From: Streptomyces sp. NBC_00525
GTDB taxonomy: Bacteria > Actinomycetota > Actinomycetes > Streptomycetales > Streptomycetaceae
NCBI RefSeq assembly: GCF_036346595.1
Contig: NZ_CP107834.1
Coordinates: forward strand, 868,001-932,000
DNA length: 64,000 nucleotides
Reading direction: 5' to 3'
The position numbers and the translations under genes were made by a program. Positions within the stretch are counted from its first letter, which is position 1. The number at the start of each line of letters is the position of its first letter. Below, in pieces: positions 2,780 through 40,122 of the stretch. A model generated the notes under the pieces. That model saw only the letters and a program-made list of their open reading frames with translations. It had not been told where the DNA came from and did not search any database.

Positions 2780-3040
2780 CTACGCGGTGTTGGGGTCTTC
2801 CCGGAGGGGACGCTCGGAGACGTCCTCACGGGGCACCGGTTGTTCGACCAGGGCGAGCACCCTGGACGCCATGAAGCGGGCCGTGCGCACCACGGCCCCG
2901 TTCCTGGTGACTTCACTCACTTCGACCACGCCCCGGCGGACCGCCGTCTCCACCCTGCGCCCGGCCCTGGAGGCCACCACCTCGTAGGTCCGGGTGCTGT
3001 CCCCGGCGTCCACGACTATCTCGACTCGATCGCCCTTCAC
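2780..3040 (-). CDS. Small conserved-looking protein of unknown function
   Basis: An 86-residue protein starting at GTG 3040, chosen because AGAAGGGGGA lies about nine bases upstream. It is soluble, beta-rich by inspection, with a charged pattern (VKGDRVEIVVDAG at the start, RGVVEVSEVTRNGAVVRTARF at residues 36-56, longer quotation avoided) and no cysteines or membrane helix. A longer frame to 3247 exists but its N-terminus is Arg/Ser-rich noise. It is divergent from the Ser/Thr kinase gene, with a 205-base shared upstream region. Function unknown. Confidence 0.7.
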   Translation of the reverse strand: MKGDRVEIVVDAGDSTRTYEVVASRAGRRVETAVRRGVVEVSEVTRNGAVVRTARFMASRVLALVEQPVPREDVSERPLREDPNTA

Positions 3041-39194: not shown

Positions 39195-39230
39195 TTCCGA
39201 GCCCCCGTCCGCCAGTTCCCGGCTGACCGG

Positions 39231-39265
39231 AAGCGCCGCCCGACACCTCGCGTCGGGCGGCGCTT
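39231..39265 (+). terminator. Terminator of the cyclophilin gene
   Basis: AAGCGCCGCCCGAC (39231-39244) pairs fully with GTCGGGCGGCGCTT (39252-39265), then TTCGTCG. Confidence 0.85.
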
Positions 39266-39317
39266 TCGTCGTTCCCGGGGGCGCACGGGAGGTGCGGAAC
39301 GGCGCGCGACCCACCGA

Positions 39318-39366
39318 GTGTCAACTTTCAGTTGACACCTCGCGACTGTCAACTTACGGTTGACAC
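39318..39366 (+). promoter_or_regulatory. Promoter with two palindromic operators
   Basis: GTGTCAAC-TTTCA-GTTGACAC (39318-39338) and TGTCAAC-TTACG-GTTGACA (39347-39365), centres 28 bases apart. The first supplies a perfect -35 TTGACA (39332-39337), then a 17-base spacer and -10 TACGGT (39355-39360) inside the second. The ATG at 39367 is six bases later, so the mRNA is leaderless. Confidence 0.85.
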
Positions 39367-40122
39367 ATGACGAATCCCGTAGTTCCCACGACACCCGTGC
39401 GTCTCGACGACCTGATCGCGGCCATCAAGAAGGTGCACACCGACGCCCTGGACCAGCTCCAGGACGCCGTCATCGCCGCCGACCACCTCGGCGACGTCGC
39501 CGACCACCTGATCGGCCACTTCGTCGACCAGGCGCGCCGCTCCGGCGCCTCCTGGACCGACATCGGCAGGAGCATGGGCGTGACCCGCCAGGCGGCCCAG
39601 AAGCGCTTCGTCGCCAAGGACCCCGGCGACGGCACCGCGCTCGACCCCAGCCAGGGCTTCGGGCGCTTCACCCAGCGCGCCAAGAACGTGGTGATGGCGG
39701 CGCAGAACGAGGCGCGGGCGGCCGGCAACACCGAGATCGGCACCGAGCACCTGGTCCTGGGCCTGCTCAGCGAGCCCGAGGCACTGGCGGCGGCCTTCAT
39801 CAAGGCGCAGGGCGTGGTCCTGGACGCCGTCCGGCAGGCGGCGACCCAGGCGCTGCCCCCGGCATCGGACGGCGAGATCCCCGAGCTGATCCCGTACAAC
39901 GCCGACGCACGCAAGGCGCTGGAGCTGACCTTCCGCGAGGCCCTGCGCATGGGGCACAACTACATCGGCACCGAGCACATCCTGCTGGCCCTCATGGAGC
40001 ACGAGGACGGCTCGGGCGTCCTCAGCGGCCTCGGCCTCGACAAGGCGGCCGCCGAGCAGGCCATCGCCGAGGCGCTGTCCGTCCTCACGGCAGGCAGGGA
40101 GAACCCCGAGAACAAGGGCTGA
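39367..40122 (+). CDS. HTH-ClpN protein, probable autoregulator
   Basis: A 251-residue protein. Residues 1-58 are helical, 60-82 look like a helix-turn-helix (ASWTDIGRSMGVTRQAAQKR), and residues 100-245 hold two repeats of the Clp N domain (FTQRAKNVVMAAQNEARAAG; TEIGTEHLVLGLL; NYIGTEHILLALM). No ATPase domain follows. In ClpC that domain binds substrates and adaptors. This gene may couple a Clp-like sensor to DNA binding. Two near-identical palindromes sit on its own promoter, which suggests autoregulation by the helix-turn-helix; a different repressor is possible. Confidence 0.9.
   Translation: MTNPVVPTTPVRLDDLIAAIKKVHTDALDQLQDAVIAADHLGDVADHLIGHFVDQARRSGASWTDIGRSMGVTRQAAQKRFVAKDPGDGTALDPSQGFGRFTQRAKNVVMAAQNEARAAGNTEIGTEHLVLGLLSEPEALAAAFIKAQGVVLDAVRQAATQALPPASDGEIPELIPYNADARKALELTFREALRMGHNYIGTEHILLALMEHEDGSGVLSGLGLDKAAAEQAIAEALSVLTAGRENPENKG

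Follow-up and report, generated by a model that had tools for sequence, protein, structure and literature searches.

The closest described counterpart of the locus examined here is ClpC2 of mycobacteria (Rv2667), which, as Taylor et al. report (2023; PMC10030653), binds its operator directly and represses itself, deletion of clpC2 derepressing the promoter. The operator, CGTCAAC-n5-GTTGACG, lies one or two bases before the open reading frame (ORF) in several actinobacteria, is repeated upstream in many actinobacteria, and overlaps the -35 and -10 elements; the clpC2 transcripts are suggested to be leaderless. The same paper describes how cyclomarin A, produced by the genus Streptomyces, binds ClpC2 and weakens operator binding, with ClpC2 affording protection as a sponge; heat also induces ClpC2, by a factor of about two, and the protein slows the breakdown of casein by ClpC1P. 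A later report states that ecumicin and ilamycin bind the C-domain of Mtb ClpC2 without inducing ClpC2 (PMC12913811, 2026).

A second relative is RelI (Rv2664), an 85 aa antitoxin adjoining the RelS toxin, for which DNA binding is not known according to the paper describing it (PMC13284704); the same source has already remarked on its similarity to ClpC2, and describes relatives of this helix-turn-helix (HTH) with DUF3887 and DUF2812 fusions as a family. Work on Streptomyces uses ClpC2 as the name of a Clp ATPase (PMC9765437), hence there is a clash of names.

A ClpC2-type protein in Streptomyces

The window analysed, a 64,000 nt stretch of the Streptomyces sp. NBC_00525 genome, contains a gene whose product, judged by sequence, is orthologous to mycobacterial ClpC2. 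The features of the locus are as follows.

39319..39337, + strand: distal operator palindrome TGTCAACTTTCAGTTGACA; exact match to TGTCAAC-N5-GTTGACA
39332-39337, + strand: -35 TTGACA, in the right arm of the distal palindrome
39347..39365, + strand: proximal operator palindrome TGTCAACTTACGGTTGACA, overlapping the -10; exact match to TGTCAAC-N5-GTTGACA, conserved
39355..39360, + strand: -10 TACGGT, embedded in the proximal operator; conservation of its first two bases
39367..40122, + strand: predicted ClpC2-type HTH-ClpN repressor, 251 aa, leaderless; ORF, Pfam and PDB sequence matches
39394..39615, + strand: residues 10-83, N-terminal dimerisation and HTH domain; matches to 8ada and phrog_686
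39658..40077, + strand: residues 98-237 approximately, double Clp_N domain, putative ligand-binding (sensor) part; Pfam, 8ad9 and 8b9o

Pfam detects Clp_N (PF02861) in two stretches (E 8.8e-29), and no ATPase or AAA+ domain anywhere in the 251 aa protein, whilst residues 26-86 match the phage HTH family phrog_686 (E 8e-8); the original prediction, of an HTH-like segment followed by two ClpC N-domain repeats without an ATPase, is borne out. An identity as a Clp ATPase (ClpC, ClpA or ClpB) was rejected, given the absence of AAA+ modules and the finding of Clp_N alone by Pfam; the NCBIfam models of Clp ATPases score 12-47 bits, against cut-offs of 885-1900. The N-domain of Rv2667 (8ada) aligns to the N-terminal domain (residues 3-72, E 5.1e-32) and the ClpC2 C-domain (8ad9) to the C-terminal part (E 2.6e-41), which matches the C-domain chains 8ad9 and 8b9o by fold as well as by sequence. 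These ClpC2 chains are the top PDB hits by sequence, and together they span the entire protein.

A structural model of the domain (mean pLDDT 79) has helices at residues 63-70 and 74-81, the latter, in the TRQAAQKRF region, being the likely recognition helix; its structural matches are weak, and mostly to HTH proteins (Fis, DeoR and sigma region 4). In the C-terminal domain, the cyclomarin contacts Q94, F96 and E181 of Mtb ClpC2 are kept as Q96, F98 and E186, and F172 corresponds to Y177. A structure of the ClpC1 domain in its F80Y form includes bound cyclomarin (3wde), so a tyrosine at this position need not abolish cyclomarin binding.

ClpN-like stretches, with 44-45% identity, are also present in the mycobacteriophages Phabba (NC_054714, 151763-152110) and Myrna (NC_011273, 152889-153224); a phage-borne ClpN sponge or decoy is conceivable.

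The operator pair and its promoter

Both palindromes are exact matches to the motif, as originally predicted, and the coordinates confirm that one supplies the -35 whilst the other covers the -10, with six bases separating TACGGT from the ATG at 39367-39369. The palindromes lie 28 bp apart, and the -35 and -10 are separated by 17 bp. Scanning the window with up to three mismatches allowed gave three matches, against 0.67 expected from shuffled sequences, of which 3 in 100 also reached three; since the third match has three mismatches, the two exact palindromes constitute the signal. The suggested search for further copies of the motif found no other exact one in the whole 7.1 Mb genome, and with two mismatches there were four additional places, against two for a reversed control pattern.

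A strict sigma-70 consensus scan called no promoter at the clpC2 operators. TACGGT agrees with TATAAT at only three of six bases, hence the assignment of the -10 rests on conservation. This was assessed using operator pairs with a start codon at most 7 nt away, drawn from all the loci collected; the 99 distinct proteins with an HTH plus ClpN that they precede are related sequences rather than independent events. The operators are spaced by 28 bp in 60 of these pairs and 29 bp in 39, leaving 17 or 18 bp between the -35 and -10, and GTTGAC is followed by the start codon after 2 nt in 83 and 3 nt in 16. The -10 begins with two bases that fall within the operator spacer and so outside the search pattern; in the proximal sites these are T in 98/99 and A in 97/99, and at the equivalent positions of the distal site, the figures are 26/99 and 41/99. 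This sequence comparison is good evidence for a -10 that forms part of the proximal operator, and transcription of the HTH-ClpN gene is expected to start at or near the ATG, without a leader.

Pfam identifies the genes on either side: a cyclophilin and a mycothiol-S-transferase-like gene lie upstream on the same strand, and a histidine phosphatase lies downstream on the opposite one. A RelS-RelI toxin-antitoxin identity was rejected, as none of these neighbours is a RelS gene. Between the cyclophilin gene and the operators is a 17 bp hairpin (39228-39268; z -4.77 for a stretch of 86 nt), which lacks the T run required by the terminator scan, but is a possible terminator. As this strong hairpin separates the cyclophilin gene from the operators, the HTH-ClpN gene is probably transcribed alone.

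Distribution of the protein and the operator

The protein is found, at E 1e-40 or better, in 83 of 101 Streptomyces genomes, the other 18 having no match at this threshold. The exact palindrome occurs in 46 of the 101, at 62 sites in total, every one of them 2-76 bp upstream of a clpC2 match, and the reversed control pattern has no occurrences at all. The exact 19-mer is absent from 37 of the 83 genomes with the protein; together with the 18 genomes with no protein match, this implies that the system is dispensable and that the site tolerates change.

When 59 orthologue loci were scored (30 of the 83 genus matches and 29 further matches from a class search, with each site permitted up to two mismatches among its 12 core bases), both sites were present, 28 or 29 bp apart, in 58. 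The single miss, L050, failed the pattern used to recognise the HTH, and has an exact pair on its contig within the stretch fetched. Loss of the palindromes upstream of orthologues, which would have counted against the original proposal, is therefore not what is seen. The class search itself found YGTCAAC-N5-GTTGACR in 110/296 genomes, and a protein match at E 1e-30 in 85/296, a number of those matches being to full-length Clp ATPases. Exact operator pairs are present in 103 of the 251 genomes in the family of G130, including all 21 of the genus g31.

These distributions bear on two alternatives. The repeats might be promoter sequence or chance, with no repressor acting, the right arm TTGACA being a good -35 hexamer by itself; yet conservation across families extends to the left arms and to the second palindrome, at 28 or 29 bp, and the reversed control is found in none of the 101 genomes, making this explanation exceedingly improbable. 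Alternatively, a different regulator might read the palindromes, the HTH-ClpN protein being merely its target: the heat-shock repressor RheA has a similar inverted repeat, TGTCATC-N5-GATGACA. However, mycobacterial ClpC2 binds a near-identical operator and its deletion derepresses the promoter, and the exact motif is found only at clpC2 in all 46 Streptomyces genomes having it, so we regard this as very unlikely. That the protein is an autorepressor acting on the palindromes, as first proposed, is by contrast very likely, by analogy with its mycobacterial orthologue and from the identical operator layout.

Which domain reads the DNA

Residues 1-95 had been proposed to bind the palindromes, which the comparative data favour, but the published assignment is to the C-terminal domain. 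Taylor et al. (PMC10030653) attribute DNA binding to ClpN on the basis of R185 and R189, which lie on a conserved positive surface of that domain; with the double mutation R185A/R189A, DNA binding is weaker in vitro, and clpC2 mRNA rises 2.0-fold in vivo. Both arginines are kept in the Streptomyces protein (R190 and R194), and the mutant result stands against reading by the HTH. An autorepressor whose ClpN domain reads the DNA, with the N-terminal domain serving for dimerisation only, nevertheless seems unlikely to us, and a comparison of sequences leads us to infer that the palindrome is read by the N-terminal HTH instead. The dimer mutant R57A raised clpC2 mRNA more than did R185A/R189A (4.6-fold versus 2.0-fold; PMC10030653), which tells against the published assignment; the same paper used R57A and C-domain-only variants to support the need for a dimer in high-affinity binding, and these results fit either domain as the reader.

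Three comparative arguments favour the HTH over ClpN. The first is that the crystallised N-domain comprised residues 4-72, obtained after proteolysis (PMC10030653), and in our alignment it ends before TRQAAQKRF, hence it lacked the modelled recognition helix.

The second is that HTH proteins without ClpN have the same paired operator. Paralogues of the N-domain, 89-95 aa long and lacking ClpN, are found at L108, L171 (Nocardia abscessus) and L174 (N. terrae), each behind an exact operator pair with 29 bp spacing, its ATG coming 2 nt after the pair; the protein database contains 11 such short N-domain-only homologues. In genome G359, in which a search for ClpC2 found none, two exact sites, spaced by 23 bp, precede an HTH gene that includes a DUF3887-like part. 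Such a part was found in nine HTH genes of the 296 genomes (the DUF3887-like assignment being below the Pfam cut-off in the genes checked), of which three have an exact site, two a site with one mismatch and four no operator site in their 3.5 kb loci. Genome G193 has an HTH-only gene with one exact site and one with two mismatches upstream; another HTH gene there runs off the contig end, and ClpC2 may possibly be present also. On the other side, ClpC2 is present in G588 and may itself read the site of the HTH-only gene, and RelI, a related HTH, is without known DNA binding.

The third is that the length of the spacer, 4 or 5 bp, tracks the recognition helix and not ClpN. The two HTH-only genes collected that have the recognition helix QAVHKKYG, one in the split locus described below and the other in G331, have palindromes with a 4 bp spacer; one arm base deviates in the second site of the split locus and in the first site of G331. 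No ClpN gene follows the HTH-only gene in G331. The 4 bp form was not found in any other of the 206 collected loci, most of which were chosen for the 5 bp form.

The split locus lies outside the window in the same genome (G000:C1:4694317-4695147; L041:1201-2031), and consists of a leaderless HTH-only gene of 69 aa followed by a ClpN-only gene of 191 aa, the two overlapping at TGATG behind a pair of palindromes with 4 bp spacers. Homologues of its HTH protein number 2961 at E 1e-5, those listed being mostly from Streptomyces. The arrangement resembles that of the HTH-ClpN locus in its paired palindromes, leaderless HTH gene and ClpN partner, but differs in having two genes, the shorter spacer and the helix QAVHKKYG.

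Small genes are also found beside the HTH. L085 and L133 have an exact site before a small gene (hydrophobic by eye) with an HTH gene next. In L075 and L078, near position 3000 on the minus strand, the operator pair precedes leaderless genes for small hydrophobic proteins ending GMWLPSRDGADER; an HTH-fusion gene with a C-terminal part of no assigned family comes next, and ClpC2 was not found in either genome.

Other genes behind the operator

Amongst 40 loci with an operator pair in the family of G130, 27 are clpC2, ten encode a flavin monooxygenase, two an EXLDI protein and one is an HTH-only gene. The flavin monooxygenases behind a paired operator are at the following loci.

L073, L074, L092, L095, L096, L100, L103, L104, L107, L109, L111, L113: flavin monooxygenase behind paired operator
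L171-L181, L183, L187, L188: flavin monooxygenase behind paired operator, continued

With L073 and L074 added, the monooxygenase has an operator pair in 11 of the 21 g31 genomes, a count of the pair loci fetched rather than of gene presence, and in G442; the genus g31 includes three Nocardia genomes, and G442 is Antrihabitans. All 14 Nocardia and Antrihabitans loci with a full-length monooxygenase match and readable upstream DNA, four of which are the same contigs as in the g31 and G442 set, have at least one exact operator site, and 13 have a pair with at most one mismatch. These 14 come from a set of 20 monooxygenase loci in named genomes. N. ninae was left out of the 14, its upstream DNA being absent; N. 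neocaledoniensis has only a C-terminal remnant of the monooxygenase, and no operator site. No operator was found at the monooxygenase loci of Amycolatopsis, Streptomyces, Actinoplanes and a Comamonadaceae MAG. Among solved structures, those nearest to the enzyme in sequence are of tetracycline destructases (Tet(51), E 8e-27), and none of the 25 NCBIfam matches listed meets its cut-off. An HTH-only gene is divergent from the monooxygenase in L171 and L174, as are apparent HTH-only remnants in L104 and L113; as an HTH-only gene adjoins the monooxygenase in Nocardia, either or both of ClpC2 and the HTH-only protein may read the site.

On the minus strand of L074 (2577-2999), L172 and L178, likewise divergent from the monooxygenase, the operator is followed by a leaderless gene for a short PEP-utiliser mobile domain (PF00391); the L074 copy starts with an apparent HTH remnant. 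The EXLDI-family proteins lie behind an exact pair in two g31 genomes (L098:1501-2097 and L115), one having been scored (TIGR04342, E 2.4e-23) and the other assigned by likeness. G169 has, in addition to its clpC2 pair, an exact pair ahead of a leaderless methyltransferase gene with a GTG start (L072:1842-2725, minus strand). A set of four related palindromes, of the type TGTCAACAACTTGTTGACG, lies near several genes in G317 (L087:2975-5355), one palindrome being directly before a 75 aa HTH-like protein.

Proposed mechanism and comparison with known systems

Given the sequence and the mycobacterial analogy, we think it highly probable that this ClpC2 orthologue, as a dimer that binds DNA through its HTH, shuts its own leaderless promoter, with ClpN as a ligand sensor and sponge. 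The protein would dimerise through its N-terminal domain and, on the comparative argument above, bind each palindrome through the HTH of that domain, covering the -35 and -10 and so switching the promoter off. ClpN, as a copy of the ClpC1 domain that receives substrates and antibiotics, would act as the sensor: a ClpC1-targeting peptide or an unfolded protein bound there would weaken DNA binding, the protein would be made in quantity, and it would soak up the ligand before this reached ClpC1, as others have demonstrated in mycobacteria. The exact sites in the NBC_00525 genome would serve the protein's own promoter only. Control by Clp ligands, part of the original prediction, thus stands in outline for mycobacterial ClpC2, through cyclomarin A, heat and the effect on casein degradation by ClpC1P, and would extend to Streptomyces by orthology. 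The accompanying claim that such a link between protein damage and transcription was undescribed was wrong: the HTH-ClpN autorepressor switch was published for mycobacteria in 2023 (PMC10030653), and the Streptomyces protein is a new instance of it.

More tentatively, and with rather less confidence than we would need to prefer it, the loci may jointly represent a modular family of actinobacterial repressors: an HTH dimer would recognise the paired GTCAAC/GTTGAC operator within a leaderless promoter, the subtype of recognition helix would set a 4 or 5 bp spacer, and the sensor would be exchanged, being ClpN, a DUF3887-like domain, absent, or a separately encoded ClpN protein; the Nocardia monooxygenase would be under the same switch. 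The shared operator, the link between spacer and helix, and the monooxygenase target were not found in the open-licence PubMed Central literature, outside which most subscription journals lie. Were the loci such a family, a ClpC1-targeting antibiotic would induce in Nocardia both a sponge and an enzyme that might modify the antibiotic. The flavin monooxygenase is a candidate target outside the known ClpC2 response. The orthologue extends the antibiotic-sponge repressor to Streptomyces, the genus that produces cyclomarin as well as other natural products, and in which the cell itself or a neighbour might make the natural ligand; and the comparative data make the question of which domain reads the DNA directly testable.

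Of the known systems, RelI has an HTH segment related to that of the Streptomyces protein (9sdc, E 6e-5), but is an antitoxin beside the RelS toxin, whereas the Streptomyces system has a ClpN sensor and an operator pair. The N-terminal domain of ClpC1 has the same fold as the Streptomyces ClpN part, and most of the cyclomarin-contacting positions in common; however, the Streptomyces protein lacks AAA+ modules and has a fused HTH, which would make it a regulator and sponge rather than an unfoldase. With mycobacterial ClpC2 it has in common the HTH-type N-domain and ClpN C-domain, and two GTCAAC-n5-GTTGAC operators on the -35 and -10 with a leaderless start just downstream; the differences are the outer operator base, which is T/A in Streptomyces and C/G in the mycobacterial consensus, and Y177 in place of the cyclomarin-contacting F172.
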